In this document: positions 2,976-17,864 of the stretch, piece by piece
Position numbering within the stretch: the stretch's first letter is position 1
Layout: every line of letters begins with the position of its first letter
DNA from: a virus
Strand: one strand, 5' to 3'
IMG/VR virus record: IMGVR_UViG_3300042141_000130
Coordinates: 1 to 25,882 of that record
Length of the DNA: 25,882 bases
Position numbers and translations under genes: made by a program
Notes under the pieces: generated by a model
Told to the model about the DNA's origin: nothing
Seen by the model: only the letters and a program-made list of their open reading frames with translations
Database searches by the model: none

Positions 2976-3239
2976 ATGGCACACTACGCATTGCTTAATG
3001 ATGAAAATATCGTTGTTCACGTTATTACTGGGGTTGACGAAAACTCTACACAAATTGACACAGATGGCACAATTGTTGGTGGTTCATCGGAAGCATGGGA
3101 ATCTTTCTATGCCGCTCAACCATGGCATTCAGGGTTGACTTGCAAACGCACGTCATACAACAACAATTTTCGTGGAGTCTATGCTGTGGTTGGGTATACC
3201 TATGATCCTATAAACGATGTGTTCGTAGCCCCACTTTGA
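2976..3239 (+). CDS. Conserved small phage protein of the tail-fibre region
   Basis: 87 residues, starting 2 bases after the stop of the glycine-rich gene, so probably translationally coupled. The opening MAHYALLNDENIVVHVITGV and the ending with NNNFRGVYAVVGYTYD and DPINDVFVAPL follow a pattern often seen in short proteins beside tail-fibre genes of marine cyanophages and other aquatic phages. Their function is unknown, and I know this only as a recurring pattern, not as a characterised family. No membrane segment, signal peptide or catalytic motif is seen. A virion accessory role is inferred from the neighbours only. Confidence 0.75.
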   Translation: MAHYALLNDENIVVHVITGVDENSTQIDTDGTIVGGSSEAWESFYAAQPWHSGLTCKRTSYNNNFRGVYAVVGYTYDPINDVFVAPL

Positions 3240-3245
3240 TATAAT
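3240..3245 (+). promoter_or_regulatory. Possible -10 element (TATAAT)
   Basis: A perfect TATAAT lies in the 40-base gap before the gene at 3280. The predicted start would leave a leader of about 28 bases containing the AGAGGA ribosome binding site. No recognisable -35 element lies 16-18 bases upstream and the region is AT-rich, so a chance match is possible. Confidence 0.3.
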
Positions 3246-3279
3246 TAGCCCATACATTACAACATTATAAAGAGGAAAC

Positions 3280-3609
3280 ATGGCCCAAGCATACAAAGTA
3301 CTAGCACAATCTGCCCCTGCAGCCACAACAAACACGGATATGTACACCGTTGGCGCTGGTCTGCAAATCGTGGCTTCAACCGTAACTATTTGTAACCGTG
3401 CGGCGGTTGCAGCCACTTACCGAATTGCTGTTCGTAATGGCGGGGCAACTCTAGCCAACCTACACTACATTGCATACGACGCCACGGTAGCGGCAAACGA
3501 CACGATTGCTTTGACCCTCGGCCTCACTCTTCAAGCTTCAGACGTAATTACCGTTTATGCTTCTAGTGCAAGCTTGTCTTTTAACATTTTTGGTTGTGAA
3601 ATTACGTGA
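3280..3609 (+). CDS. Small beta-rich virion protein, function unknown
   Basis: 109 residues behind a good ribosome binding site (AGAGGAAA, 3271-3278). The sequence is almost free of charged residues in its second half and has alternating beta-strand character: LQIVASTVTICNRAAVAATY, IAYDATVAANDTIALTLGLT, LQASDVITVYASSASLSFNI. Short single-domain proteins of this type occur beside tail fibres in many aquatic phages. A virion or adhesin role is inferred; there are no catalytic motifs. Its stop codon overlaps the GTG start of the next gene by four bases (GTGA), so the two are likely co-translated. Confidence 0.75.
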   Translation: MAQAYKVLAQSAPAATTNTDMYTVGAGLQIVASTVTICNRAAVAATYRIAVRNGGATLANLHYIAYDATVAANDTIALTLGLTLQASDVITVYASSASLSFNIFGCEIT

Positions 3610-4148
3610 TCTACAGGGCTGTAAATGCGTCCATTAGCCGCACGGCACAAGCTAAGTTTTCATTAGAACGTTTTACAGGAAGTAAACTTAAAAGAACTTA
3701 CCGCCTTTCTTGCGGAGACATAGATGTCTACACGGGAATAGAGACTTGTATCGGAGTCAATCTCTACAGGTCGTACCACGATGGTATTTGTGGAACTTAC
3801 AGTACTTTGTATCAAAGCAATAGTGCCACTTGTGGCTACGTTGCACCAGCACCAGTTTCTCCAGTAGGGGTTTCGCCAGTAGGAGTTTCGCCAGTAGGAG
3901 TAGGAGGAGGAGGAGGAGGAGGAGGAGGAGGAGTTGGTGGCCCAACAAGCTGCACTTCTTGTAATGGAATTGCAAGTTCAACATCAGATAATCTCGTTTG
4001 CGAAGGTGGTTATCTTGTAACGTACAGGACATATTATTGGACGGAGCCATATGGTAACCCTGCTGGCTGTACTGGGTGCCCATCACAAGAAACGCATGAA
4101 ATTAACAGATATTGTGCAGCACCAATACCGTGTCCTGGTTCGTGCTAG
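3606..4148 (+). CDS. Cys-rich protein with PVGVS repeats and a polyglycine hinge
   Basis: 180 residues with a GTG start inside the preceding stop (GTGA overlap). Residues 1-78 form an N-terminal domain. Residues 80-99 hold Pro-Val repeats (PVSPVGVSPVGVSPVGV), followed by ten glycines encoded by ten GGA codons and then VGG. The C-terminal domain has many cysteines in pairs (CTSCNG, CTGCPSQ, CPGSC) and aromatic residues, suggesting disulfide or metal stabilisation. The layout of two domains joined by a flexible repeat hinge fits a virion-exposed or adhesin-like protein, in keeping with its neighbours. I do not recognise a named family. The opposite-strand frame across it is a Leu-rich shadow of the GGA repeat. 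Confidence 0.7.
   Translation: MIYRAVNASISRTAQAKFSLERFTGSKLKRTYRLSCGDIDVYTGIETCIGVNLYRSYHDGICGTYSTLYQSNSATCGYVAPAPVSPVGVSPVGVSPVGVGGGGGGGGGGVGGPTSCTSCNGIASSTSDNLVCEGGYLVTYRTYYWTEPYGNPAGCTGCPSQETHEINRYCAAPIPCPGSC
3861..3899 (+). repeat. 15-bp tandem repeat encoding PVGVS units
   Basis: Two full copies of CCAGTAGGnGTTTCG (3861-3875 and 3876-3890) and a partial third (3891-3899) stand in tandem, differing by one base. Each encodes Pro-Val-Gly-Val-Ser in the gene at 3606. The unit length is a multiple of three, so copy-number change would keep the frame. Confidence 0.85.
3903..3932 (+). repeat. GGA trinucleotide repeat (10 units)
   Basis: Ten consecutive GGA codons encode a ten-glycine run in the gene at 3606. 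Perfect triplet repeats are prone to slipped-strand copy change, and the G-rich strand has four-stranded folding potential. In-frame changes would lengthen or shorten the hinge. Confidence 0.9.
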
Positions 4149-4175
4149 GGTTGTAACTATTAATAAGGAGATTTT

Positions 4176-4403
4176 ATGTCTAAAACAAGTCAACCGCGGC
4201 TAAACATGAATAACTTAAAAGAATTTGCTGTGGTAGTAGAAGGAGACGTTGCGTTTACCATGAAGCATCCAATTGAAGTAGAAAACGTAATTGCTGCTTT
4301 ACGCTCAAATCCTCAAATAATTGAAGTTCCAGATGAGCTAAAAAATGTTGTCACTTTCGGTTGGACTTTTGACGGAACAAATTTTACACCACCATCGGAG
4401 TAA
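4176..4403 (+). CDS. Small hypothetical protein
   Basis: 75 residues, preceded by a strong Shine-Dalgarno sequence (AAGGAG, 4164-4169). The sequence is soluble with mixed charge (FAVVVEGDVAFTMKHPIEVE, ending VTFGWTFDGTNFTPPSE). It looks like a compact alpha/beta domain without cysteines or catalytic motifs. The ending resembles small proteins found near structural and auxiliary genes in aquatic phages, but I cannot name a family. It sits between the adhesin run and the enzyme cassette, and its stop lies 3 bases before the next start. Confidence 0.65.
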   Translation: MSKTSQPRLNMNNLKEFAVVVEGDVAFTMKHPIEVENVIAALRSNPQIIEVPDELKNVVTFGWTFDGTNFTPPSE

Positions 4404-4406
4404 CAA

Positions 4407-4631
4407 TTGAGTGCTTGGCAGGAATACAAAAAGAAAATTGGTACTGCTCGCCCTTGGCAACTTCTAGATCCATCTAATTATGTAGATGAGAGTTTAGAAA
4501 AAGAAAGGTATGATATATGCCTTGCTTGTCCAGAATTACTCAATATAACAAAGCAATGCAAACAATGTGGCTGTGTTATGTCACTTAAAACTAAACTTAG
4601 GAATGCAGTATGTCCACTGGGCAAATGGTAG
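4407..4631 (+). CDS. Small zinc-ribbon-like Cys protein
   Basis: 74 residues with a TTG start chosen because GGAG (4397-4400) sits six bases upstream and no ATG in frame would keep the protein intact. The C-terminal half has CLACPELL, CKQCGCVM and CPLGKW: two CxxC-type pairs plus further cysteines, a pattern fitting a single zinc site. Short proteins ending in CPLGKW occur in many cyanophages and other aquatic phages, often beside 2OG-Fe(II) oxygenase genes. The link to the next gene is close: the reading frames overlap by 22 bases. The partner or substrate is unknown; zinc binding is inferred from the cysteine spacing alone. Confidence 0.7.
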   Translation: MSAWQEYKKKIGTARPWQLLDPSNYVDESLEKERYDICLACPELLNITKQCKQCGCVMSLKTKLRNAVCPLGKW

Positions 4632-5218
4632 GAGAAAGAGAACTTGCTCCTGGGATAATTGTATACTCGTACAATAGAGATAAAGCAAATGAGTGGCTCT
4701 CAACACTAAAAACATACTCTGAGCCACTTTTGGCTTACGGAACAGTCTATACAAAAAAAGAAGATGGTTATCATTCAACAGTAAACCTAGACCACAGAAA
4801 GTGTAAAGTATTTTCTGGAAGTGATTTGCCGAATTGTCACATTGAAGATCCGTTAAGAGTTCTTTCAAATCAAATGCATGCTTTTATGGATGAAAATGTT
4901 GCAAAATTTTGCAATAAATATTCTGCCCATGAAACAGTAAAAAACCATGATGCAATATTTTTAAAGTATGAATCAGGTGATTTCTTTAATGACCACAACG
5001 ATGACTGCCCAACATACCCCAGAACTGTTTCTTCTGTTGTTTATCTTAACGAAGACTACTCTGGGGGTGAGCTTTGCTTCAAACATTTTAATATTGAGTA
5101 CAAACCACAACAAGGCGATTGTGTAGTCTTTTCATCGGCATTCCCGTATATGCATAGCGTAAAGCCAATTACAGAAGGAACAAGGTATGCAGTTGTTAAC
5201 TGGTATACGTACGTATAA
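4610..5218 (+). CDS. 2-oxoglutarate/Fe(II)-dependent oxygenase (prolyl-hydroxylase type)
   Basis: 202 residues. Iron ligands are visible as H129-x-D131 (NDHNDD) and H182 (PYMHSV), with R192 (GTRYAV) as the likely 2-oxoglutarate anchor. The intervening VVYLNEDYSGGELCF and KPQQGDCVVFSS segments are typical of the P4Hc/2OG-FeII_Oxy superfamily core. Such enzymes hydroxylate proteins, small molecules or nucleic-acid components using O2 and 2-oxoglutarate; the substrate here is unknown. The ATG at 4610 has AGGA upstream (4599-4602) and overlaps the zinc-ribbon gene by 22 bases; an ATG at 4625 is an alternative. Phages from surface waters often carry these enzymes. The family call is confident, the role is not. 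Confidence 0.9.
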   Translation: MSTGQMVGERELAPGIIVYSYNRDKANEWLSTLKTYSEPLLAYGTVYTKKEDGYHSTVNLDHRKCKVFSGSDLPNCHIEDPLRVLSNQMHAFMDENVAKFCNKYSAHETVKNHDAIFLKYESGDFFNDHNDDCPTYPRTVSSVVYLNEDYSGGELCFKHFNIEYKPQQGDCVVFSSAFPYMHSVKPITEGTRYAVVNWYTYV

Positions 5219-5233
5219 GGTAGGATTACTAAC

Positions 5234-5998
5234 ATGACTCTTGCAGAACTTACAATTGCACCACCAAACCCAGGCCCTGCAGATTGGAACGATGACGGTT
5301 TTCTAGTTGTAGAAAATTTAATTCCAGAAAACTTAATGTTTGACTATGAGCGTTGTTGGGCAGAAAACAATTCTGAAAGGCCTGGAGGTTGGCCAGATTG
5401 CACACCATACCGACGTCATCCAGAAGTAATGGACATTTTGACTTACAAAGGAATCAACGACACAATAGAACAGTTGATTGGTGAACCTGGTGGTGTGCAC
5501 CTAAACCTAACTGGGTGGGTAACTACTAGACGCAATTGGCACCAAGACACATACTTAAATCCTCCACATGTTGGAGATTACTACGCTGCTGTGTGGATTG
5601 CTTTAGAGACAATTCATCCCGATTCTGGACCTTTTCAATTTGTTCGTGGGTCACACCGTTGGCCAGTTGTCACACGCGAAAAGATTCTTGCTGCCCTAAC
5701 CCCAGAAGAACGAGACCACACATGGCCTAAACACAGCGAACGTTTGTTAACCCCACTTTTTGAACAAGAGATTGTAAACCGTAATGCAGAAGTGATTACT
5801 TACCTTCCAAAACGTGGTGATGTTTTGTTTTGGCATGGTCGTCTATTACATCGTGGATCGGAACCTAATGTTGTTGGAATGCCTAGAAAATCTTTAATTG
5901 CCCATTACTCTGGAATCAACCATAGGGAAGACATGCCTACAGCATTACAGCATAGTGATGGCTGGTATTTTCCGATTGACGGTGGCAATGTTTCTTAA
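5234..5998 (+). CDS. Phytanoyl-CoA dioxygenase (PhyH)-family oxygenase
   Basis: 254 residues. This is a second, unrelated-looking 2OG-Fe(II) enzyme. The iron triad is H103-x-D105 (NWHQDTYL) and H206 (RLLHRGSE), and R218 in MPRKSLIAHY is a likely 2-oxoglutarate ligand. PDSGPFQFVRGSHRWP and PKRGDVLFWHG are hallmark PhyH segments. The family hydroxylates lipids, amino-acid derivatives and other small molecules; the substrate cannot be deduced. TAGGAT (5222-5227) serves as a ribosome binding site seven bases before the ATG. The gene follows the other oxygenase by 15 bases and overlaps the methyltransferase by 11 bases, so the three are very probably one transcription unit. Confidence 0.92.
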   Translation: MTLAELTIAPPNPGPADWNDDGFLVVENLIPENLMFDYERCWAENNSERPGGWPDCTPYRRHPEVMDILTYKGINDTIEQLIGEPGGVHLNLTGWVTTRRNWHQDTYLNPPHVGDYYAAVWIALETIHPDSGPFQFVRGSHRWPVVTREKILAALTPEERDHTWPKHSERLLTPLFEQEIVNRNAEVITYLPKRGDVLFWHGRLLHRGSEPNVVGMPRKSLIAHYSGINHREDMPTALQHSDGWYFPIDGGNVS

Positions 5999-6560
5999 CG
6001 CTGGTTGTGGCACACATTATGCTTCAGGTTGGGTAAACACCGACGTTTGGGAAAACGAAGACACAAGACCCGATGTTCGTGTAGAGCCAGGTAAACCTTA
6101 CCCGTTTGGCGACAACACTTTTGATGCAGTGTTTATGAGTCATGTTCTAGAACACATCCATTGGGGTGAAGTTCCGGCATTTCTTAATGAGATGTCTCGC
6201 GTGGCAAAGCCAGGTGCACCCATGCTCATTATTTGCCCAGATGTTTATAAAACTATAAAACTGTGGCATGAAGGCAAAATGCCATGGTGGTTAGTTGAGT
6301 CAGTCATGGAGCACGCCGAAGTTGCTCCAGAACATTTGAAAGACGTTGAGTGGTGGGATGGTGCTACACACCATTGGAACGCACACGAAAAGAGAATAGA
6401 GGATTTGCTAAACCAAATGCAATTCCCAAATATTGAAAATGTGTTTACACTGATACCCGATGGCAACTCTTGGAATGACCACCGAATTGCAAACTTAATA
6501 TGGCCTGTTGTAGGTAAAGCAGATTGGCAGTTGTGTTTAAGATTTACCAACAAGCAATAA
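5988..6560 (+). CDS. Class I SAM-dependent methyltransferase
   Basis: 190 residues from the ATG at 5988. This start places the SAM-binding motif I (LNAGCGTH) right at the N-terminus, as in many short phage methyltransferases; the frame is open 90 bases further upstream, but that part lies inside the PhyH gene and adds no domain. FGDNTFDAVFMSHVLEHIHW is the motif III-like segment typical of the Methyltransf_11 group, followed by a strand-forming MLIICPD. The acceptor is unknown. The 11-base overlap with the PhyH gene suggests coupled translation. A common guess for this cassette is stepwise modification (hydroxylation, then methylation) of one substrate, but the sequence does not show it. Confidence 0.85.
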   Translation: MFLNAGCGTHYASGWVNTDVWENEDTRPDVRVEPGKPYPFGDNTFDAVFMSHVLEHIHWGEVPAFLNEMSRVAKPGAPMLIICPDVYKTIKLWHEGKMPWWLVESVMEHAEVAPEHLKDVEWWDGATHHWNAHEKRIEDLLNQMQFPNIENVFTLIPDGNSWNDHRIANLIWPVVGKADWQLCLRFTNKQ

Positions 6561-6571
6561 AATTTATGCGC

Positions 6572-6577
6572 TAAAAT
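6572..6577 (+). promoter_or_regulatory. Possible -10 element (TAAAAT) for a leaderless GTG gene
   Basis: TAAAAT ends five bases before the GTG at 6583, and no Shine-Dalgarno sequence is present. This would place transcription start at or next to the start codon. No clear -35 element is present, so the call is tentative. Confidence 0.3.
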
Positions 6578-6582
6578 GTGGT

Positions 6583-8601
6583 GTGAAGTTTAAATTTCGC
6601 CCACTGCAACTGCTCCCATTGTTTATTTGGTTACTTCCTTTTTTTGCACAAACAGCATTTGCCGACACCCAACCAGGTTTGACATATACGGTTTGGGATA
6701 ACCGCACCGGACAGAACAACCAGTACAACGTAAGTCCGCCACTCCCACCAACCACACCGATCATCGCAACAGGTGTCGCACCACGCATTGAATATCAGTT
6801 TGGTGGCGGTCCGATCTTCGGCACAAACATATCCGAGGATGTCGTCGTCAAGTTTGAAGGCTGGATTGATCCACCAACCGACCAGATGTACTACTTGTGT
6901 GTCGCTTCGGATGACGGCGCGAAGATGTATTTAGACGGCGTGAATGTCATCAATGATTGGTATGACCGTGGCGGCGGATGCGGGCAGACAGCCGATGTTG
7001 ACTTCTCAAACGGTCAACCCAAACAAATGACAGTTTGGTATTACGAAAATGGTGGCGGTGCGCATGTCACACTTCTGTACTACACCGGCAACGGTTGGGC
7101 TGCTGCACCCGACTCGTGGTTTACAATTGACCAACCTGTCGTGACTACGACGACCACTTCCACCACAACCACAACGACGACAACCACCACCACAACATCG
7201 TCAACAACGACCACAACAACCCTGCCACCCACAACAACCACGGATTTGACGACAACAACGTCTTCCACGACAACCACAACTTCTTCAACGACGACGACCT
7301 CGTCAACAACAAGCACCCTGCCAGAAACCACAACCACGACCACAAGTTCATCTACGACAACCCTTCCCACATCAACGACCACAACCAGCGAACCAGTTCA
7401 GACAAGCACAACCACATTAGTTGAAAATACAACGACGTCCACGACCACAACAATTCAACCAGCCCCGACAACAACGCAAGCACCTTATACTCCCCCGCAA
7501 ACCACCACTACTAGTCCCACCATTGAGACTCAACCCGAACCAACCACACCCGTAACCGAAACCACAGTTGCCGAACCCGAAACATCTACAACCTATCCTG
7601 ACGAGCCTTTTCCCAATATTCCTGATCCAACTTCTGACGAGACTGTTCCCGATGAAACAGAGCAGCCAACAGACACAGAAATGCCACAGGAAGATACAGC
7701 AGAAACAGAGCAAGAACAAGTAGAGGATTCATTAGATGATTATACCCTCCCAGAAGACGGTGAGGCAATCATTGCAGAAGAACTGGATAGCATTATTGAT
7801 GAAGTATTTACTGAGGATGTTTCGGCAGATGTATTTGTAGAAACACTTACCACCTTGCTTGATGCTGAACTTACAGATGAGCAATTAACTGAAGTTCTAG
7901 ATTCTGCTTTTTCTGAAGAAGCCTCGGTTGAAAACATGGTTTCAGCATTGGATGAGATTCTTGACGGCCCGATAGATGCAGAAGATTTGGAAAAGGTAAT
8001 GGACGCAGTTTTTGACGGCGACCTGTCTGACGATGAAACAATTGCTCTTGCCGAAGAGGTGCTAAAAGGTGAATTGACTGCCGATGAGTTTGCCACTGTA
8101 ATTGACGCAATTTTTGACGAGAAAGTAACTGACAAAGTTCTGATTGAAACATTTACTGCTGTTTTGAAGACTGAGCTTGACAACGAGAAATTTGAAGAAA
8201 TAGTAAATGTCCTTGAATCAGAAACCATATCCAACGAACAAGTTGCTGAAGTAGTTACTTTGATTGTTGAACAGGAAGGTGGAGTTAATGCAGAACAGGC
8301 AACCGAACTCGCAACAAGTGAAAAAGTGTTGGAAAGCATTGACGGCGAACAAGCAACGAAAGTGTTTGATGCCGTGGTTGCGTCTGAGGTGTCGCCAGAG
8401 GATGGGTTAGCAATTTCAAAAGCCGTGCAAGAAGCGCCTAAAGAAGTTAGAAAAGCATTTGAAAAAGAACTTAATGTTTTTGAAGGTGTATTTGATGTGT
8501 ATGTCCCGATGGGTTCTAGAGTGCCAGTGGGTGATCGCCGTGTCATCGTCGGTGTGGGTGCTGTATTATTAAGTGTCCCAGTTCGCGTGCGAGTTGGGTG
8601 A
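6583..8601 (+). CDS. Exported PA14-domain protein with Thr-rich linker and 17-residue repeats
   Basis: 672 residues with a GTG start directly before a Sec signal peptide (MKFKFRPLQL, a hydrophobic core to about residue 25, likely cut after AQTAFA). Residues 30-183 resemble a PA14/GLEYA-type beta-barrel (VVKFEGWIDPPTD, YYLCVASDDGAKMYLDGVNV, WYDRGGG, MTVWYYENGGGAHVTLLY), a module that often binds carbohydrate. Residues 188-340 are almost pure Thr/Ser/Pro, like surface-protein linkers of Acidimicrobiia. Residues 345-400 are acidic, 409-561 hold nine tandem 17-residue repeats, and the C-terminus ends in a short hydrophobic, Arg-bearing stretch (VIVGVGAVLLSVPVRVRV) that may anchor it in the membrane. 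By hand count GC is about 52% at 6721-7140 and 40% at 7801-8220, suggesting a host-derived front half. It may be a secreted adhesin, superinfection-exclusion or virion protein. Confidence 0.85.
   Translation: MKFKFRPLQLLPLFIWLLPFFAQTAFADTQPGLTYTVWDNRTGQNNQYNVSPPLPPTTPIIATGVAPRIEYQFGGGPIFGTNISEDVVVKFEGWIDPPTDQMYYLCVASDDGAKMYLDGVNVINDWYDRGGGCGQTADVDFSNGQPKQMTVWYYENGGGAHVTLLYYTGNGWAAAPDSWFTIDQPVVTTTTTSTTTTTTTTTTTTSSTTTTTTLPPTTTTDLTTTTSSTTTTTSSTTTTSSTTSTLPETTTTTTSSSTTTLPTSTTTTSEPVQTSTTTLVENTTTSTTTTIQPAPTTTQAPYTPPQTTTTSPTIETQPEPTTPVTETTVAEPETSTTYPDEPFPNIPDPTSDETVPDETEQPTDTEMPQEDTAETEQEQVEDSLDDYTLPEDGEAIIAEELDSIIDEVFTEDVSADVFVETLTTLLDAELTDEQLTEVLDSAFSEEASVENMVSALDEILDGPIDAEDLEKVMDAVFDGDLSDDETIALAEEVLKGELTADEFATVIDAIFDEKVTDKVLIETFTAVLKTELDNEKFEEIVNVLESETISNEQVAEVVTLIVEQEGGVNAEQATELATSEKVLESIDGEQATKVFDAVVASEVSPEDGLAISKAVQEAPKEVRKAFEKELNVFEGVFDVYVPMGSRVPVGDRRVIVGVGAVLLSVPVRVRVG
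7807..8265 (+). repeat. Nine degenerate tandem 51-bp (17-residue) repeats
   Basis: The protein repeats every 17 residues, with single 16- and 18-residue units near the end. Examples are LDGPIDAEDLEKVMDAV, FDGDLSDDETIALAEEV, LKGELTADEFATVIDAI and FDEKVTDKVLIETFTAV. The consensus is [LF]-[DK]-x-x-[LIV]-[ST]-x-[DE]-x-[LF]-x-x-[VL]-x-x-[AE]-[VIL]. DNA identity between units is low, so the array is old. Each unit looks like one amphipathic helix and a turn. Confidence 0.8.
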
Positions 8602-8673
8602 GGTTAACCAGTTAAAATCGCATTAGAGGCCCCTAGGAGGCCATTACAGGCGACAAAATACCACATGGGCTAC

Positions 8674-8693
8674 TTGATAGCGGACTTTATCAA
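8674..8693. other. Non-coding gap 8602-8714 with a short dyad
   Basis: The 113 bases between the exported protein and the small membrane gene hold no open frame I would call. They contain the dyad TTGATA-8 bases-TATCAA (8674-8693) and the palindrome GGTTAACC (8602-8609). No U-tract follows, so this is not a clear terminator; an operator or a chance match is equally possible. Confidence 0.3.
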
Positions 8694-8714
8694 AACAAGC
8701 GTATATGGAGTTTT

Positions 8715-8879
8715 ATGGAAAATCTTAAAAAAGAGTTAAAAGGTCTTATTTGGACTTTAGCCGGAACTGGGTTGGTGTTAATCACCCTATCTGGAAGTAC
8801 TCGTACAACTGGTATTTGGATCAGCATTGCTGCTATAGTTCTTTCGCTAGGAAGTGCGTATTTATCTAAAGACGAATAG
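8715..8879 (+). CDS. Tiny two-helix membrane protein
   Basis: 54 residues, beginning MENLKKELKGLIWTLAG and ending in the charged tail SKDE. Two hydrophobic segments (about residues 12-28 and 33-50) are separated by a short polar turn (SGSTRTTG). GGAG (8707-8710) lies four bases before the ATG, a slightly short but usable spacing. Size and layout fit a small holin, antiholin or other phage membrane protein, but the position between an exported protein and a glycosyltransferase, far from the endolysin, does not point to lysis. It may assist the neighbouring surface-related genes. Function not recognised. Confidence 0.65.
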   Translation: MENLKKELKGLIWTLAGTGLVLITLSGSTRTTGIWISIAAIVLSLGSAYLSKDE

Positions 8880-8885
8880 GGATGC

Positions 8886-9968
8886 ATGAGACGGAACACA
8901 ATAGGGTTTTTAACACACGACTGGGCATACGGAACAAAACCATTACAACCTAACGGGTGCGCTTGGTACAGATGTTTATTGCCAATGCGAGAGCTAGAAA
9001 AGCACAATTGGCGAGTGGGCATTGGCATGCCACAATTTAACAAAGAACATGGTTTTGGAATGATCTTAAAAGAGAACCAAGCCGTGCATGGTTGGGATGT
9101 ATTGGTGTTTAAACTTCTCATGAGAAAAGAAGTGGCATCAGCAATGCCGATTGCTAAAGCCCTTGGTCAAAAGATAGTTGTGGACATTGATGACTTTTTT
9201 GACGGTCTGGATGAGACTAATCAAGCTTATGCTGTTACTGACCCAAAGAGAAATTTAGACAACAATCGGGAGCATTACAACTCTATTATTGCTCAAGCCG
9301 ATGCCATAATAACATCAACACCGTTTCTATACGACTATTACAAAACAAAATACAAGAATGTTTATCTTGTACGAAATGGTATTGACTTACCTCGTTGGGT
9401 ACGCAGAAAAGACAGGGCAGTCAGTAGACCCACCATTGGTTGGGTAGGTGCAACTCCATGGAGGTCTAGAGACCTAGAAACATTGTCTTCATGGATTGGT
9501 CCGTTCATAAAGAAAAATAATTTGTTGTTTCATCACTCTGGGCATACTGCAAATTCACCTTTGGCTAGAGAACAATTAAAGATAGATAAACAACGATGCA
9601 CATCTACTCCGTTGTGTCCAATCAACGAATACCCTAAATTGTTTAGCAAGATAGACATTGGGATTGTCCCTCTTAACGATTTACCTTTTAACCATGCCAA
9701 GTCCTACATCAAAGGGCTTGAGTATGCTGCCGCTGGCGTTCCTTTTGTGTCTTCATATTCTCCCGAATATGAGTATTTAGCAAATGCTGGAATTGGTAGA
9801 GTGGCTCGCAACGCTGCAGAATGGCAATATCATTTAAGCGAGTTGATAAACCCTCAACTGCGTAAGGATGAGGCCGAAGTCAATTACGAAATATTAAAAG
9901 AAAAGTTTACAATGACCCAAACTGGCGCTGATTGGAATGATGTAATGCTTCAAATACTGAAGTTATAG
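8886..9968 (+). CDS. Glycosyltransferase, GT-B fold (GT4-like)
   Basis: 360 residues. The N-terminal half has a Rossmann-like start (NTIGFLTHDWAYG) and VVDIDDFFDGLDE. The C-terminal half begins at about residue 183 with TIGWVGATPW, the usual second-domain entry of GT-B enzymes, and carries the nucleotide-sugar signature KGLEYAAAGVPFVSS around E279. This matches GT4/Glycos_transf_1 proteins that move a sugar from an NDP-sugar to an acceptor. Phage versions may modify the host surface, virion proteins or DNA; neither donor nor acceptor can be told. The ATG at 8886 lies 6 bases after the previous stop, with TAGGGA overlapping that stop as a weak ribosome binding site. Confidence 0.88.
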   Translation: MRRNTIGFLTHDWAYGTKPLQPNGCAWYRCLLPMRELEKHNWRVGIGMPQFNKEHGFGMILKENQAVHGWDVLVFKLLMRKEVASAMPIAKALGQKIVVDIDDFFDGLDETNQAYAVTDPKRNLDNNREHYNSIIAQADAIITSTPFLYDYYKTKYKNVYLVRNGIDLPRWVRRKDRAVSRPTIGWVGATPWRSRDLETLSSWIGPFIKKNNLLFHHSGHTANSPLAREQLKIDKQRCTSTPLCPINEYPKLFSKIDIGIVPLNDLPFNHAKSYIKGLEYAAAGVPFVSSYSPEYEYLANAGIGRVARNAAEWQYHLSELINPQLRKDEAEVNYEILKEKFTMTQTGADWNDVMLQILKL

Positions 9969-9975
9969 ACTGTTC

Positions 9976-9981
9976 TATAAT
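9976..9981 (+). promoter_or_regulatory. Possible -10 element (TATAAT) for a leaderless gene
   Basis: A perfect TATAAT ends six bases before the ATG at 9988. The AGGAG that follows lies only one base from the ATG, too close for a normal Shine-Dalgarno contact. A leaderless transcript starting at the ATG would explain both. No strong -35 element is seen 17 bases upstream (AATACT). Confidence 0.42.
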
Positions 9982-9987
9982 AGGAGC

Positions 9988-10575
9988 ATGGCTAGACGCA
10001 GAGGCATTAATACAGAAGCAATGGCGCGTATTCGTCGTGCATTATCTGATGCCAAAGACTCTTTTGCGTTATCTTCAGACGAAGCTAAAGAAGCGTTGTT
10101 TTACGCTGAAGAACGTTTTGACCCATGGGTAGCAGCTACACAAGGCGCGGATAATGAAGACCCCAGTCAATTGGGAGAACGAACAAATGGTCAGGACAGC
10201 ACACGCTTATTGTCTGCTCAATACTTTTTTAACAAAGAAACCTTAATTGGGGATATTTATTTAAAATTTAGAGGACAAAAAAACAGAAGAAATGGACCGT
10301 ACTATGTGTTTAACAATGTTCCAGCATTTGTTGCAAAACGCTATATGACCGCGTTGTCCAAAGGCAAAACATTTAATACGATGGGGCTATCTGGAGGGTA
10401 CACACGAGACACTACTAAGTTTTCTTTAGAACCAGCAACGCCGTTTGGTGCAAAAATTCAAAAAGGCAATTACGGAAACGTTCCTCCTATTCCGGGTGTT
10501 CCTAGAACCCAACCTCTTTCAGAAGGTGCTTACGAATCGGGACTTGGTATACAACAACAATCGGACAATACTTAA
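9988..10575 (+). CDS. KTSC-domain-like protein
   Basis: 195 residues. The centre (about residues 90-130) reads IYLKFRGQKN, then YYVFNNVPAFVAKRYMTALS, then KGKTFNTMG. This fits the KTSC pattern, in which a short beta-hairpin Y-x-Y-x-x-V-P is followed by a helix and S-x-G-x-x-F-N. KTSC modules are small, sometimes nucleic-acid-associated domains of unclear function, frequent in phages. The N-terminus is Arg-rich (MARRRGINTEAMARIRR), giving a basic start that could touch DNA; the C-terminus is Gly/Pro-rich and probably disordered. It opens the run of small genes leading to TerL, so a packaging-related or small-terminase role is possible, but no HTH is seen. Confidence 0.7.
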   Translation: MARRRGINTEAMARIRRALSDAKDSFALSSDEAKEALFYAEERFDPWVAATQGADNEDPSQLGERTNGQDSTRLLSAQYFFNKETLIGDIYLKFRGQKNRRNGPYYVFNNVPAFVAKRYMTALSKGKTFNTMGLSGGYTRDTTKFSLEPATPFGAKIQKGNYGNVPPIPGVPRTQPLSEGAYESGLGIQQQSDNT

Positions 10576-10601
10576 ACTAAATTTTCGCTAGGATACACAA
10601 C

Positions 10602-10877
10602 ATGTCTATCAACACGGTTCACGGGTTTTGGTTTGTCTATTGGATAATTCGGGATACTGCAAGTAAAACCACGCCAAGAATGGCTGTAGGTTGGCTTCGT
10701 GAATTGGGCGGATATTGGCGCGTTGGTAAAGGCATTCAAATCAAAACAGGGAAGTACATTACACAAGTTGGCGTTTGTAGAAAACGTGAGTTTACAAATG
10801 AAGAAGAAGGGACATTAAACGTTCTTGAGGGTAGGATGATGACAACACCCACTAGTGAGATTGGAGATTGGCGTTGA
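10602..10877 (+). CDS. Small hypothetical protein
   Basis: 91 residues. The sequence is Trp- and basic-rich at the front (GFWFVYWIIRD, MAVGWLRELGGYWRVGKG) with no hydrophobic stretch long enough to span a membrane. No Shine-Dalgarno sequence precedes the ATG, but TAGGAT (10589-10594) ends seven bases upstream, resembling the -10 spacing seen before other genes here. It overlaps the next gene by four bases (TTGA). No family recognised; the position just upstream of TerL suggests an accessory gene. Confidence 0.6.
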   Translation: MSINTVHGFWFVYWIIRDTASKTTPRMAVGWLRELGGYWRVGKGIQIKTGKYITQVGVCRKREFTNEEEGTLNVLEGRMMTTPTSEIGDWR

Positions 10878-11122
10878 GATTGTTTAAAACTGAAAAGTTG
10901 TTGACTGAAGAGAAAGAAAGAACTCGTGCACAAATTCGTGCGGAAAGATTGGATACTTCATCTTTGTACACATGGATGGATAATTCCATAATGTCCTTGG
11001 GTGCTTCTTTTGATAATTGGCGTTTTAAAGATGCGCCATCAACGGAAGTTTCTTCATGCATAGAAGCAATTGCTGTGGTATGGTCGGAAATTGAAAAGAG
11101 GAAAAATGGACGAAACATGTAG
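10874..11122 (+). CDS. Small hypothetical protein, helical
   Basis: 82 residues from a TTG start. TTG at 10874 was chosen over TTG at 10868 because GGAG (10863-10866) then stands at a normal seven-base spacing and the start overlaps the previous stop (TTGA). The N-terminal half is strongly charged and probably one long helix (EKLLTEEKERTRAQIRAERL), and the rest is mixed (SLYTWMDNSIMSLGASFDNW). No catalytic or metal motifs are seen. It overlaps the next gene by 17 bases, within a run of tightly coupled small genes before TerL. Function not recognised. Confidence 0.62.
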   Translation: MRLFKTEKLLTEEKERTRAQIRAERLDTSSLYTWMDNSIMSLGASFDNWRFKDAPSTEVSSCIEAIAVVWSEIEKRKNGRNM

Positions 11123-11357
11123 ATCACCCGAAGAACTAAAAATGGATAAAGTAGTAGCGATGCTGAGGAAGATGGCAAACGACATTGGATCGTTTCCACG
11201 CAACAACATTATTAAACGAGAGGACTATTGTCTGATTGCTGATGTTGATGACCTTTATAATTTCTTAATTTGCGTTGAAGACCTTTATGAGTACCACAAA
11301 GGATTAGTGCGCCCAACAGAAGTCCACCCTGATCAACTATCATTATTTGAGATGTAG
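11106..11357 (+). CDS. Small hypothetical protein upstream of TerL
   Basis: 83 residues from the ATG at 11106, preferred because AGAGGA (11097-11102) lies just upstream; the frame is open to 11070, but that extension lies within the previous gene and has no ribosome binding site. The protein is acidic and helical (SPEELKMDKVVAMLRKMAND, then DVDDLYNFLICVEDLYEYHK). By position directly before the large terminase it could be the small terminase subunit, but no helix-turn-helix is obvious and it is short for that family. No family recognised. Confidence 0.6.
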   Translation: MDETCRSPEELKMDKVVAMLRKMANDIGSFPRNNIIKREDYCLIADVDDLYNFLICVEDLYEYHKGLVRPTEVHPDQLSLFEM

Positions 11358-11372
11358 TGTATCCTTATATGG

Positions 11373-12929
11373 ATGAGCGAAACACTAACTGACGAACAAT
11401 TACCAGAGGATTTAGTTGAAGAATTAGATGAAACCTCTGCTGAATTTGTAGAGCAACTCGTCACAAAGTTGGTTTTGTTTACAGAACAATTCTGTGACGT
11501 TGAGTTTTTCCCTTATCAAATACCCATTGCTTATCGGGTAATTGAGTCCATAGTGTTGGGAGATGGCGAAGAAATAACATTAATTGCAACTCGCCAAAGT
11601 GGAAAATCAGAAGTAATTTCTAATGTGCTTGCATCCATGATGGTAATACTTCCCAAATTAGCTCCTGTATACCCAACATGGTTATCTAAGTTTAGTAAGG
11701 GTTTTTGGTGCGGTGTATTTGCTCCCGTTGAAGACCAAGCCGATACGGTGTTTAGTCGCATAGTCAATCGTTTGACTTCAGACCACGCTTTGACGTTTTT
11801 ATTAGACCCAGAAATTGATGACACCACTAAAGCTGGTGGCACGCGAGGTAAGGGAAAGATTTTGGCGTTAAAGAACGCTGGGTCACTATGCCGTATGCAA
11901 ACTTGTAACCCTAAAGCCAAGATTGAATCTAAAACTTATCACTTTGTGTTAATTGACGAAGCTCAAGAAGCAGACGAATATGTGATTGCCAAATCAATCA
12001 AACCAATGTTGGCATTTAACAACGGAAGCATCATGTTGACTGGTACTGCTTCGCGCACCAAATCTTACTTTTACAAAATGATTCAATACAACAAGCGACG
12101 TATGACCAGTAGCAAAAAGAGCATGCGAGATTGTCATTTTGAATATGATTGGAAAGTTGCATCCAAGTACAACCAAAATTATTTGAAGTTTATTGCCAAA
12201 GAGAAGCTCCGTATTGGCGAAGATTCTGATGAATTTCAAATGTCGTATTGCAACCGTTGGATGCTTGAAAAAGGTATGTTCGTCACCGAAGAACGCATGG
12301 AGAGGTTGTACGAACCATCTATGCCGTTAGTCAAACAATGGTGGAGAACTCCTGTGGTTGCTGGTATTGACGTTGCTAGATCTAACGACTCTACGGTAGT
12401 AACCGTTGTCTGGGTGGATTGGGATCATCCAGACCCATTTGGTTTTTACGAACATAGAATCCTAAATTGGTTAGAAATTAACGACCAAGAATGGGAAAGT
12501 CAATACTTTCAAATTGTTGATTTTTTGCGCAATTACGAAGTTTGTAAAGTCGCCGTAGACGCCCAAGGTGTTGGTGGTGCGGTTGCCGAACGTCTTCAAA
12601 TCCTACTACCCCATATAGAAATAACGGCTACCTCATCTGATTCAAAAAGCCAAAATGAAAGATGGGTACATTTAACAGAATTAATACAAAGAGAACAACT
12701 TATTATTCCAGGGCATTCAAAAGCTCGTCGTACTAAAATGTGGAAAAGATTTAATCAACAAATGAACGATTTAGAGAAAGTTTATAAAGGTCCATATATG
12801 TTGGCGGAAGCTCCTGACGAAAAAGGAGCGTTTGACGATTACCCAGATTCCCTTGCTCTGGCGTGTTCTAACACTATTCATGACACCATGCCTACAATCC
12901 AAGTTGGGGAAAACCCGTTCTTTAAATAA
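11373..12929 (+). CDS. terL: Terminase large subunit (DNA-packaging ATPase/nuclease)
   Basis: 518 residues, a usual TerL length. ATPase domain: Walker A-like TRQSGKS (residues 73-79), Walker B with catalytic glutamate VLIDEAQ (192-198; D195, E196) and coupling motif TGTAS (223-227). RNase H-like nuclease domain: D333 in GIDVARS, D396 in VAVDAQG, and D489/D492 in FDDYPDSLAL. Together these show a complete packaging motor that pumps DNA through the portal and cuts concatemers. The start at 11373 has no Shine-Dalgarno sequence; TATCCT (11360-11365) ends seven bases before it, so leaderless translation is possible. The small subunit is not clearly identified; candidates are the upstream genes or the HTH-like gene at 16400. 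Confidence 0.96.
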   Translation: MSETLTDEQLPEDLVEELDETSAEFVEQLVTKLVLFTEQFCDVEFFPYQIPIAYRVIESIVLGDGEEITLIATRQSGKSEVISNVLASMMVILPKLAPVYPTWLSKFSKGFWCGVFAPVEDQADTVFSRIVNRLTSDHALTFLLDPEIDDTTKAGGTRGKGKILALKNAGSLCRMQTCNPKAKIESKTYHFVLIDEAQEADEYVIAKSIKPMLAFNNGSIMLTGTASRTKSYFYKMIQYNKRRMTSSKKSMRDCHFEYDWKVASKYNQNYLKFIAKEKLRIGEDSDEFQMSYCNRWMLEKGMFVTEERMERLYEPSMPLVKQWWRTPVVAGIDVARSNDSTVVTVVWVDWDHPDPFGFYEHRILNWLEINDQEWESQYFQIVDFLRNYEVCKVAVDAQGVGGAVAERLQILLPHIEITATSSDSKSQNERWVHLTELIQREQLIIPGHSKARRTKMWKRFNQQMNDLEKVYKGPYMLAEAPDEKGAFDDYPDSLALACSNTIHDTMPTIQVGENPFFK

Positions 12930-12969
12930 TGGTATTCTTTAATATCCGATTAACTCTAAGGAGTGACAC

Positions 12970-13377
12970 ATGACAGTATCACCAGCACCTATGTTCCCAG
13001 AAACGGGTCGTAACGAAATTATGTTTGAAGGCGAGTACGCCCCAAGCATTCCAGGCAACAAGGGTCCGCTTCGCTTTGAAGAAGGCGTTGCTACAGACAC
13101 TGACGTTCCAAACGACTTTGCTAAAGGCGCATATGAGGACACTGCTCCATCGCCAATGCGAATGAACCAAAATAACCCAGAGATGTTCTACAAGCATGCC
13201 GCAGACACTATGCGCGAGCGTGCGCACGTAGGTTCAGCCTCATGGGTTGAAGCACCATCAGTGCTTAGCGAATTTGTGGAAGGTGCCATGTCTGGCGACG
13301 ACATGCCGAAGTGGGAGTACTCCTACAACAGCGGTGGTCACATGAACCGTCCAAACGTAACTGTTGTTAGCGACTAA
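12970..13377 (+). CDS. Hypothetical protein with strong expression signals
   Basis: 135 residues behind a strong Shine-Dalgarno sequence (AAGGAGTG, 12958-12965) in a 40-base gap after TerL. The sequence is low in hydrophobic residues and rich in Pro, Met, Asn and Glu (MTVSPAPMFPETGRNEIMFE, ending NSGGHMNRPNVTVVSD), so it is probably extended or partly disordered. Codon choice (frequent CGC, GGC, GAC) is closer to the major capsid gene than to most neighbours, hinting at high expression, for example as an abundant virion or DNA-packing accessory protein. That is an inference; no family is recognised. Confidence 0.7.
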   Translation: MTVSPAPMFPETGRNEIMFEGEYAPSIPGNKGPLRFEEGVATDTDVPNDFAKGAYEDTAPSPMRMNQNNPEMFYKHAADTMRERAHVGSASWVEAPSVLSEFVEGAMSGDDMPKWEYSYNSGGHMNRPNVTVVSD

Positions 13378-13379
13378 CA

Positions 13380-13913
13380 ATGGAAGGCGGAACAGCTTCC
13401 GCATCTGAGTCCGGCGGTCTTGAATCTGGAGACAGCGGTCTCACAGGAACGCAAGAGCTATCTGAAAGTATTGCGCAAACCTACGGGCTAAGTCCTGTAG
13501 GTGCGTTTAGTCCACGAGGTTACAAGAGCAGAAAAGGTATATTTCAAACTATTGTTTTGCGCACCCCACCAGCAGCTGCTGAATTAAGAGAACGACGACA
13601 CCCGTTTGTTCTTAACTCGTATTTAAAAAATACATTGGGAGTTTCTGTTTATCAACCAACGGGTTACGCCATGCCAAAGAACTTAGCAGGTTCTGGTTTG
13701 CAACCAACTGCTCTTTCCAACCAACAGTTCTCAGAAGAACCTGCGGACCCAGTTGACTCTGCGTTTGGAACACAATCTCCGCATCTAGATGCTGGTGTTC
13801 GTGATGTTGAGAGGCCAGAGGAAGAGGGACGCTTGAGCAAAGAAACAGATCTTCGTAGGCGTGCATTGCACGTTGAAAAAGGTCGCAAAGACAAATACGA
13901 CTACGGGAGTTAA
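13380..13913 (+). CDS. Hypothetical protein, low complexity ends
   Basis: 177 residues, starting 2 bases after the preceding stop. The first 35 residues are Gly/Ser/Glu-rich and probably disordered. A central, more folded-looking part follows (KGIFQTIVLRTPPAAAELRE, then FVLNSYLKNTLGVSVYQPTG). The last 50 residues are highly charged (RDVERPEEEGRLSKETDLRR, then EKGRKDKYDYGS). No catalytic motif, cysteine pair or membrane segment is seen. The tight spacing to both neighbours suggests co-expression with the gene at 12970 and the GP88-family gene. Function not recognised. Confidence 0.65.
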   Translation: MEGGTASASESGGLESGDSGLTGTQELSESIAQTYGLSPVGAFSPRGYKSRKGIFQTIVLRTPPAAAELRERRHPFVLNSYLKNTLGVSVYQPTGYAMPKNLAGSGLQPTALSNQQFSEEPADPVDSAFGTQSPHLDAGVRDVERPEEEGRLSKETDLRRRALHVEKGRKDKYDYGS

Positions 13914-13917
13914 CAAC

Positions 13918-14952
13918 ATGGCAGAAACACCATTTTTTTATGAATTAGACCAAGTAAGTGAAGCTGATTTAAACAGGATACCTGTTGGAAGAGGGGGTGC
14001 TCAATTCAGCAAATTCTTAATAGATCAAGGAAGAAATCCTGGTTTGACACTATTAACATCTCCTAAAAGTAATACAAAAATTAAAAAAAACATGACTTCT
14101 ACAAACCCAATGGCTCGTTTGTCTTACCAAGCCAGCATGAATTTATCTCCAGCTAGGTCTTCTGGAGTTACAGATACCTGCGGTTCTTGTTCAACCGCGG
14201 GTTGTCGCAATAACTGCATTAATGACACTCATCAAATGTCTGGACCAGATCAACAGGCAGCACAGATTAATCGTACAAAATTTGGCGTTTTGCATCCAGA
14301 TTTGTTTTTAGCAACTCTCAGAGATGAATTAAGCCAACATAGTGAAAAGGCGTATGCTTTAGGTTTACACCCCGTAGCACGTTTAAATACAATTTCGGAC
14401 ACAGCTTTTCATAGGTTAAAAGTTGCTCCAATTATTATTGGTCAATATGCGGAAGCTCCAAAGGGTTTGGATTTACCTAAAGAAATTAGGCATCTTCCAG
14501 GAATGACTTTTAACGAATATTCAAAAGAAAATATGCGTGATGTACGTGGAGTTCCTGAACCAGATCCTGTTTATGCACACCACCATATAGCCCACAGCGC
14601 AAGCGAATTAACTACAGCAGGTCGTGTTGCCGAACTTATAAAACAAAATAGGAATGTGTATTTCCCAGTTGATAGATCAAGGGGTCCTGCTCATGTTTAC
14701 CCATATACGACATTTAAAGACTTAAAAACAGGAGCAGAGGTTACAGCACCTTCTTTTGATGCAGATCGTGATGACGCTAGATGGGCAGATCCTGAAAAAG
14801 CATCTTTTGGTGTTTTTGCTGAAAAGAAACGTGGTCATTATTCTAAAGGATTAATAATAAACCCACACACTAACGAACACGGTTTTATACGTGAAAACAT
14901 ACCTGGACAAAATGTTTCCCTTAGCCGCAAACCTTCTCGTAAGCAGTTGTAA
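13918..14952 (+). CDS. GP88-family phage protein
   Basis: 344 residues from the ATG at 13918, with GGGAG (13905-13909) upstream; the longer frame from 13861 lies inside the previous gene. The protein follows the pattern I know as the phage 'gene product 88' (GP88) family: MNLSPARSSG, a cysteine cluster C88-x2-C91-x4-C96-x3-C100, QINRTKFG with LFLATLRDEL, then VARLNTISD (compare the family's RLNGTSD), MTFNEYSKE, and a late segment around DRDDARWADP, SFGVFAEKKRGHYS and LIINPH. The family is widespread in actinophages and other phages and has no established function; the conserved cysteines suggest a metal or Fe-S site. It lies between terminase-proximal unknowns and the lysis genes. Confidence 0.78.
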   Translation: MAETPFFYELDQVSEADLNRIPVGRGGAQFSKFLIDQGRNPGLTLLTSPKSNTKIKKNMTSTNPMARLSYQASMNLSPARSSGVTDTCGSCSTAGCRNNCINDTHQMSGPDQQAAQINRTKFGVLHPDLFLATLRDELSQHSEKAYALGLHPVARLNTISDTAFHRLKVAPIIIGQYAEAPKGLDLPKEIRHLPGMTFNEYSKENMRDVRGVPEPDPVYAHHHIAHSASELTTAGRVAELIKQNRNVYFPVDRSRGPAHVYPYTTFKDLKTGAEVTAPSFDADRDDARWADPEKASFGVFAEKKRGHYSKGLIINPHTNEHGFIRENIPGQNVSLSRKPSRKQL

Positions 14953-14954
14953 TT

Positions 14955-15167
14955 ATGACTGACGCTTGGGCAATAGTTATCGCTGCGTCTATTCCTGTTT
15001 TGGCTACAGGAATTGGTTGGGTAATAAAACTTTTGTTCAACCTTGCAAAAACAAACAGAGACGATCATAACAAGGTTATGGAAGAAATGCAAGTTTTAAC
15101 AAAAAGCGTCAAGAAGGTAGGAAAGAAACTAGATAAACACATAGATTGGCATGCATATGAAAAATAA
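14955..15167 (+). CDS. Small membrane protein, one helix plus coiled coil (holin candidate)
   Basis: 70 residues. One membrane helix near the N-terminus (residues 5-28, WAIVIAASIPVLATGIGWVI) is followed by a charged, coiled-coil-like helix (NRDDHNKVMEEMQVLTKSVK) and a His-rich end (HIDWHAYEK). This layout of one helix, then a cytoplasmic coiled coil, resembles the second small lysis-cassette membrane protein of actinophages (DUF2746-like). It starts 2 bases after GP88 and overlaps the next membrane protein, which is followed directly by the endolysin. A holin or holin-modulating role is inferred from this context. Confidence 0.78.
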   Translation: MTDAWAIVIAASIPVLATGIGWVIKLLFNLAKTNRDDHNKVMEEMQVLTKSVKKVGKKLDKHIDWHAYEK

Positions 15168-15441
15168 AGATTTGCTTGTTAATGTCCTTCTTAGAATCCT
15201 TGCAACATTTGCGGCATCAGGTTTGGGCGTAATTGGTGCAGGAGCAATCGCTGGAGTTCCGTTGTGGAAAGCCTGTTTTATGGCAGGAATTGCAGGCGTG
15301 GCATTTGTTGTTGAAGGTTTGTCTCGTTCATTCTTAGATGATGGTAAACTTACGCTTTCTGAAATCAACGACGTCTTCAATAAAGTAGACGGAAAAGATT
15401 CAACAGTAGAAGAAAAACCAACAAAACCAAAGGCTAAATAA
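15151..15441 (+). CDS. Holin-like two-helix membrane protein
   Basis: 96 residues, or 94 if the ATG at 15157 is used; neither start has a clear ribosome binding site and both lie within the previous gene's end. Two membrane helices (about residues 11-33, VLLRILATFAASGLGVIGAG; and 38-57, WKACFMAGIAGVAFVVEGLS) precede an EF-hand-like acidic stretch (DDGKLTLSEINDVFNKVD) and a Lys/Pro-rich tail. This matches small actinophage holins, which open the inner membrane so the endolysin can reach the wall. Its stop overlaps the endolysin start by one base (TAATG), making a compact lysis cassette. Confidence 0.85.
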   Translation: MHMKNKDLLVNVLLRILATFAASGLGVIGAGAIAGVPLWKACFMAGIAGVAFVVEGLSRSFLDDGKLTLSEINDVFNKVDGKDSTVEEKPTKPKAK

Positions 15442-16208
15442 TGAACAAAGTTGCTTGGGATTATATTGTTCCTATTAAAATGCCAGCCGATTTGAAAGGA
15501 GTTGAACCTGGAAAACTGCCCGAATCATTACTCAGAGCAATCCCAACAGGAGGAAAACTCCACTGGCTTGCAGCAAACGCATGGAACGCAATGGTCGCCA
15601 AAGCCAAAGCCGACGGAATTGAACTCAAGCCCACGTCATCTGGCGACCTCTATCGCAGTTACGAGTCGCAACTGGCGAGTTTTAAACAGCGCTACGTTCT
15701 GGAACCAATTCAGGGAACCAGCACAAAAACATTTGAAGGAAAAACTTGGTACCTGAAAAAAGGTATGGCAATGCTTGCCACCCCAGGAAAATCAAATCAT
15801 AATCTTGGTCTTGCCGTTGACGTGCACTCAGCAAGTGAGCCAAAGCGTCTTAATTGGTTAATTGCCAATGTTAAAGATTTTGGATTTTCGTGGGAAGTGG
15901 TTCCCAGCGAACCTTGGCATTTGCGCTACGTATGTGGTGATACACCACCTCCAGCCGTTGTTGCTTATGCTGCTGGGCAACCAGCACCTGCTGCAAGCAC
16001 AGCAGCAGCTCCGGTAGCTGACGTTTCTAAGGACGCAAACAAAGAACTTCAACAAGCCCTTAAAGACAAAGGTTTTTACAACGGGGCAATTGATGGCGAT
16101 CTTGGTCCAAAAACTCAAGAAGCTGTCAAAGCGTTCAAGGTTGCAAACAAGCTTAACGCCGACTCCGTCGTTGGTCCAAAAGTAAAAGAACTTCTAGGCC
16201 TAAATTAG
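15441..16208 (+). CDS. Endolysin: M15 (VanY-type) peptidase with peptidoglycan-binding domain
   Basis: 255 residues. Residues 30-167 form an M15 D,D-carboxypeptidase/L-alanyl-D-glutamate-peptidase-like zinc domain: YRSYESQ (residues 71-77), SNHNLGLAVDVH with zinc ligands H120 and D127, and EPWHLRYV with catalytic E157 and ligand H160. A Pro/Ala linker (170-195) leads to a PG_binding_1 domain (200-255: ELQQALKDKGFYNGAIDGDL, GPKTQEAVKAFK, VVGPKVKELLGL). It cleaves peptide links in the host wall at lysis. There is no signal peptide, so it needs the upstream holins to cross the membrane. Sampled codons are more GC-rich than in several neighbours. The gene overlaps the holin gene by one base. Confidence 0.95.
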   Translation: MNKVAWDYIVPIKMPADLKGVEPGKLPESLLRAIPTGGKLHWLAANAWNAMVAKAKADGIELKPTSSGDLYRSYESQLASFKQRYVLEPIQGTSTKTFEGKTWYLKKGMAMLATPGKSNHNLGLAVDVHSASEPKRLNWLIANVKDFGFSWEVVPSEPWHLRYVCGDTPPPAVVAYAAGQPAPAASTAAAPVADVSKDANKELQQALKDKGFYNGAIDGDLGPKTQEAVKAFKVANKLNADSVVGPKVKELLGLN

Positions 16209-17859: not shown

Positions 17860-17864
17860 AACAC

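Follow-up and report, generated by a model that had tools for sequence, protein, structure and literature searches.

A phage two-gene module with exchangeable heads, probably serving display on the infected cell surface

The window, that is the whole 25,882-nucleotide stretch of viral DNA analysed here, carries at 6583-8601 a gene for a large protein of an undescribed family, followed by a small partner gene. Our best explanation as a whole, of moderate confidence, is that the two genes form a module by which phages, probably actinobacterial ones, display a protein on the cell surface, with receptor masking as its likeliest purpose. We consider display of the protein on the surface of the infected cell likely. 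That masking of receptors is what the display is for is a more tentative proposal, to which we give somewhat less than an even chance. The architecture, the family, the invariable partner, the fusions and the exchange of heads are each read from sequence. Inspection of the large reading frame reveals that it is present and open on the plus strand, begins with GTG and encodes 672 amino acids. The features of the module are as follows:

6583-6663, plus strand: predicted Sec signal peptide (residues 1-27; n/h/c layout; cleavage after AFA; in 60/61 relatives)
6664-7137, plus strand: PA14 head (residues 28-185; SDDG, with the DDG motif; Pfam PF07691, 3e-8)
7138-7617, plus strand: Thr-rich stalk (residues 186-345; head swaps end within the stalk)
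7618-7752, plus strand: acidic Pro/Glu-rich spacer (residues 346-390; from sequence and composition)
7753-8490, plus strand: acidic helical repeats and conserved helical core (residues 391-636)
8491-8541, plus strand: family signature FDVYVPMGSRVPVGDRR (residues 637-653; positions invariant or nearly so in 61 relatives)
8542-8598, plus strand: hydrophobic stretch (residues 654-667) and basic C-terminus RVRVG, proposed membrane anchor
8715-8879, plus strand: two-TM partner, 54 amino acids (MENLKKELKGLIWTLAGTGLVLITLSGSTRTTGIWISIAAIVLSLGSAYLSKDE), with a GGAG ribosome-binding site; adjacent or fused in 93/93 testable loci

A sequence-only reading of this DNA had described a signal peptide, a PA14 module, a Thr linker and acidic helical repeats, all of which are found in the frame. 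Its proposal of export is supported by residues 1-27, MKFKFRPLQLLPLFIWLLPFFAQTAFA|D, which follow the three-part layout of Sec signals and include an AFA|D site, and by the relatives, where a basic n-region with a hydrophobic stretch occurs in 60 of 61 non-redundant members and an A-X-A-like cleavage site likewise in 60 of 61. No lipobox Cys follows the signal peptide in the window protein. Thr makes up 86 of the 160 stalk residues, residues 346-640 carry a net charge of -75, and residues 391-636 are 72-97% identical in close relatives. Overlooked in that reading were the conserved hydrophobic, basic C-terminus (residues 637-672) and the partner gene. The protein ends FDVYVPMGSRVPVGDRR-VIVGVGAVLLSVPV-RVRVG, that is to say signature, hydrophobic stretch and basic end, where the KD15 maximum of the stretch is 2.09 at residue 654. 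At least two K/R lie within the last eight residues in 41/41 unfused relatives. The window protein has this hydrophobic stretch and basic end and no LPXTG.

These termini also bear on whether the protein could instead be a virion component, e.g., a decorated fiber. Tail genes precede this gene in the window, as they do in many relatives, and the heads look like receptor-binding modules. Tailed virions assemble in the cytoplasm, however, such that a protein that has a predicted Sec signal (60/61 relatives) and a proposed membrane anchor is unlikely to belong to the virion. Moreover, the heads have essentially no homologues among other genes of these phages, save two weak matches in L049. We regard a place in the virion as very improbable.

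The partner reading frame had fallen below the length limit of the first list of open reading frames. Among 94 loci analysed (a few of which are the same contig), the partner is fused in frame to the large gene in 20, adjacent to it in 73 and cut by the contig edge in one, leaving 93 testable; the 73 comprise 71 within script limits plus L069 and L076, where the open frames overlap slightly more. A reciprocal search starting from the partner placed the core gene just upstream in 151 of 152 testable loci. Changes between fused and separate forms number at least three on well-supported branches of the core tree and six on the best tree, which is built from few columns and has many forks without resolution. 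Gene fusion and constant adjacency imply that the two proteins work together. The partner protein has two hydrophobic segments, a KDE end and no Pfam match. At locus L158, an fn3/ASH-type protein (2-946) with an LPVTG sortase signal stands directly before the partner, the one LPXTG replacement seen in the loci covered. There is no core at that position, and because LPVTGG, a TM segment and KKG end the protein in its place, the core plausibly does the anchoring job. We also considered whether the gap separating the genes preserves a remnant of a fused linker and rejected this, as the gap has no profile match (best 2.4 bits). This intergenic segment (8602-8714) is well conserved in close relatives and holds a near-palindrome around GGCCYCTAGGAGGC.

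Scanning IMG/VR with an alignment of the C-terminal part recovered at least 296 relatives. Those examined keep the C-terminus FDxYVPxGSxVPVGxRR, a hydrophobic stretch and a basic end, together with the two-TM partner directly downstream. We define the family by a signal peptide, the core signature and an adjacent or fused two-TM partner, all of which the window protein has. The core matches no Pfam family above cut-off, and PHROGs yield no match for the window protein and, for one of 61 relatives, a single weak match, to an unannotated PHROG. Pfam matches to GatB_Yqey (26 versus 27 bits in the window) and Glycos_trans_3N in the repeats were taken as helical look-alikes. The core region of a modeled fused relative is helical (pLDDT 75-89), where the fused-form model has a mean pLDDT of about 60 and a poorly modeled topology; a Foldseek search with the fused C-terminal model, largely of low confidence, gave no significant match. 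A description of the family was not found in the open-access literature. The family is undescribed, present neither in Pfam nor in PHROGs, and its one annotated member is a 'hypothetical protein'. While phage proteins displayed on infected cells are a known kind, the two-gene scaffold with exchangeable heads appears to be new.

The hosts of these phages are probably actinobacteria, given that the nearest TerL proteins belong to Streptomyces phages (46-47%) and that phage DSL-LC01 is a relative; the window itself is without direct host evidence. Actinomycetia are the predicted hosts of DSL-LC01, whose genome includes WhiB genes (PMC10611076). Its WJZ48438.1, a 'hypothetical protein' in a metagenome-assembled genome, is a fused family homologue, 38% identical in the C-terminal part and 41% in the partner, with heads other than that of the window. 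A family gene is also observed in a Flavobacteriales MAG bin (L095, CALKUW010000343.1), along with a two-TM partner, a holin-like gene and a peptidoglycan-hydrolase-like gene; at 61% GC, this is probably a misbinned phage contig. Elsewhere in the window, 17823-18500 encodes a proteasome-like (Ntn-hydrolase) protein (Pfam Proteasome, 9e-8), and an RCC1 repeat (beta-propeller) protein lies at the open end (1-891) beside an Mtd_N tail fiber gene (904-1713).

The head of the window protein scores 33.9 bits against PA14 (PF07691, Pfam cut-off 24) over residues 31-173, and its AlphaFold model is of good quality (pLDDT 87, pTM 0.86). Superposition on 6qe7 gives Z 18.1 with an rmsd of 2.5 over 142 residues, and the nearest structures are the RsgI3 PA14 domain (Z 18) and the sugar-bound Marinomonas PA14 domain MpPA14 (Z 16). 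Profile matches link the head to RsgI3 (9e-32) and to 6m8m (1e-7). The DDG motif is invariant across 16 PA14 heads, and the profile alignment sets the SDDG of the head opposite the ADDG of 6m8m and MpPA14. From what is known of sugar-binding PA14 domains, we take DDG to correspond to the Asp-Asp (DcisD) motif at their calcium/sugar site, and the head would by this reading bind a surface sugar, probably with calcium. MpPA14, the RTX adhesin 6m8m, Flo/Epa adhesins and the RsgI3 PA14 domain all have the same fold as the window head (Z 13-18), and the first two also have DDG in common with it in the profile alignment. These are cellular proteins, whereas the window head belongs to a phage gene and its sugar binding is predicted.

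PA14 is one of several head types, which are adhesive or sugar-binding in kind. Pfam identifies PA14 in 16 of 61 non-redundant members, fn3 in 14, EPTP in six, a beta-helix in three, PPC in two, and an L-type lectin (1e-40) and GLEYA in one each. Long-stalked heads of lectin and adhesin type could also serve adhesion or aggregation, where heads on infected cells bind neighbors or particles and bring new hosts close. Such 'sibling capture' has been proposed for pelagimyophage curli genes, in a paper that does not mention PA14 (PMC7029224). Pelagibacter phage HTVC008M gp18 (L002 5872-7197) resembles the window protein in its signal-peptide-like start and in a PA14 head 33% identical over 156 amino acids, and is encoded after curli genes. 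In contrast to the window protein, gp18 continues into curlin-like repeats and has no Thr stalk, core or partner, and the window has no curli genes. An adhesive purpose thus seems quite unlikely to us, though less so than virion membership.

Composition along the gene is uneven. The sequence-only reading had estimated about 52% GC for the PA14 part and about 40% for the repeats by hand, close to the computed 51.9% and 42.7%, and the codon-usage check along the gene that it proposed shows a step in GC3 from 0.544 in PA14 to 0.316 in the repeats, with a mean of 0.31 in the other window genes. The highest GC3 of any 158-codon stretch in those 23 genes is 0.449 (269 sliding windows). After controlling for amino acids, the GC3 excess remains in PA14 (z = 5.9), continues into the initial half of the linker (z = 5.4) and is lost in the repeats (z = 1.1); within the linker, GC3 is high in that half and then drops toward the phage mean. 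The family-wide excess of heads is small (0.47 vs 0.40 in tails), and the step is therefore largely particular to the window.

Comparison among relatives reveals that heads and cores have separate histories. Window DNA aligns with L004 at 83% over 3233-6602 and 89% over 7334-13923, and from the signal peptide to mid-linker there is no long alignment, only one 44-base match at 84%. Alignment with L006 likewise runs up to 6680 and resumes from 7253. The opposite arrangement is found in L012, L014 and L015, which are 68-70% identical to the window in the head and 30-35% in the core. Head identity is only weakly correlated with core identity over 1035 pairs (rho 0.13): in 35 pairs the core is at least 70% and the head at most 35% identical, and in 36 the core is at most 48% and the head at least 50% identical. 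The GC3 step together with head exchange among relatives supports the view, put forward from sequence alone, that the gene is a mosaic, and we attribute the GC step of the window to head exchange between phages. These data suggest that selection acts on the head through its binding target.

The source of the head is a separate question. By the same measure, head GC3 is 0.55-0.58 in L012/L014 and 0.56 in the window, and in L012/L014 it is also near the GC3 of their own genes. Given the agreement in GC3 and in identity (L012: head 69%, core 35%), an L012/L014-type phage is the likeliest donor; that is to say, the window head most likely came from another phage with the same gene and not from a host. 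Such heads travel widely, since L015 carries one at GC3 0.46. The sequence-only reading had instead proposed that the front was recently captured from a host surface gene and fused to a phage-like tail, a view consistent with the GC3 step and with its premise that the presumed hosts typically have such Thr-rich linkers. Two observations were to count against recent capture, the full architecture in many phages and uniform composition; the former is borne out by the relatives of the C-terminal part, and the latter is not what we see. The nearest heads found belong to this gene as carried by other phages and match in GC3, and the only match in a genome scan (one pattern, among the matches listed) is a phage-like contig in a MAG. 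Recent host capture is thus very doubtful, contrary to the original proposal. The head may have a more ancient host origin, bacterial genomes having been covered by one pattern, among the matches listed.

Genomic setting brings in a lysis-related role, the main rival to receptor masking by virtue of the neighborhood and of a known two-TM lysis protein of similar layout. Here, the partner would be holin/antiholin-like and the large protein would bind wall or surface glycans and help or time envelope disruption. Downstream sequence reaches at least six genes in 77 loci, and 54 of these have VanY-type endolysin and/or holin-like clusters within eight genes, often within 1 kb, where VanY was confirmed and 'holin-like' denotes small size and hydrophobicity only. 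Fusion ties the two parts together, and LysF1a, a two-TM protein with both termini inside (N-in/C-in), affects lysis timing in mycobacteriophages (PMC13056207), offering a parallel. In the window, however, the module lies between tail/modification genes and a glycosyltransferase, about 6 kb from a lysis cassette (14955-16208) that has small TM-like proteins of its own; most endolysin-adjacent loci carry further holin-like genes, and a lysis role leaves head exchange between phages without explanation. We consider it unlikely, albeit the strongest of the alternatives. Gly-rich tail genes are often upstream (51 loci, counted in either direction), and this, with the endolysin/holin-like neighbors, suggests late expression. 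Just upstream of the window module, 4610-6560 encodes two oxygenases (2OG-FeII and PhyH) and a methyltransferase; the 2OG gene is 27% identical in L006, compared with 94% for PhyH, and may be exchanged too.

Of the roles suggested in the sequence-only reading, we favor a block to superinfection from the cell surface. Receptor masking by a displayed protein, the purpose that we favor, would proceed as follows. Sec would export the large protein, which would stay in the membrane of the infected cell by means of its hydrophobic, basic C-terminus and the two-TM partner. From there, the acidic helical rod and the Thr-rich stalk would bear the head through the cell wall. Late in infection, the head would mask receptors on the infected cell and on debris, keeping competitors out and protecting progeny. 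Phages swap the head alone, from the end of the signal peptide to mid-stalk, by recombination, and keep stalk, anchor and partner. Export, topology, sugar binding, timing and purpose are what we infer in this scheme.

If heads mask receptors, they should vary in step with the receptor-binding proteins of the tail. For Gly-rich tail proteins, such covariation is weak (partial r 0.19-0.29 after two controls; values as high in 9-50 of 500 permutations), in a test where the core was located by a pattern that misplaces it in L038, L048 and L073. Single pairs disagree: L004 has a swapped head and a divergent Gly-rich tail gene, whereas in L006 the head is swapped and the Gly-rich tail gene is still 76% identical. 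In the window, this Gly-rich tail protein (2116-2973) marks a second variable spot relative to L004, most neighboring genes being 85-99% identical.

Precedents exist for exported, variable phage proteins tied to superinfection exclusion. In T5-like phages, alleles of a receptor-blocking lipoprotein lie beside the receptor-binding gene, and this protein, Llp, counters superinfection and, presumably, inactivation on debris (PMC4728585). Like the window protein, T5/BF23 Llp (with Oad/Hrs) is a phage-encoded, exported protein of the infected cell whose alleles vary among relatives. Llp is, however, a small lipoprotein that blocks a protein receptor of Gram-negative hosts, with no homology seen to the window protein, which differs in its long stalk, adhesive heads, anchor and constant two-TM partner. 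A highly variable, exported PA14 protein was also described as Cryophage PA14/T9SS cargo, for which competition or superinfection exclusion was suggested (PMC7468147, Bellas et al. 2020); it carries a type IX secretion sorting domain (Bacteroidetes-type hosts) in contrast to the core and two-TM module here.

In its fullest form, our proposal is of a modular receptor-masking device, with exchangeable lectin/adhesive heads and a dedicated anchor and two-TM partner, coevolving with the phage's own receptor-binding proteins and widespread in actinobacterial phages; this we offer as a possibility a little more tentative than masking itself. If true, phages of aquatic bacteria would redecorate infected cells using a standard display scaffold on which the head is swapped like an allele, and a large family would join the few known phage surface-exclusion proteins. 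The constant partner would make the anchor mechanism open to direct test. Hundreds of unannotated genes would gain a function, and the heads would be usable as probes for host surface glycans.
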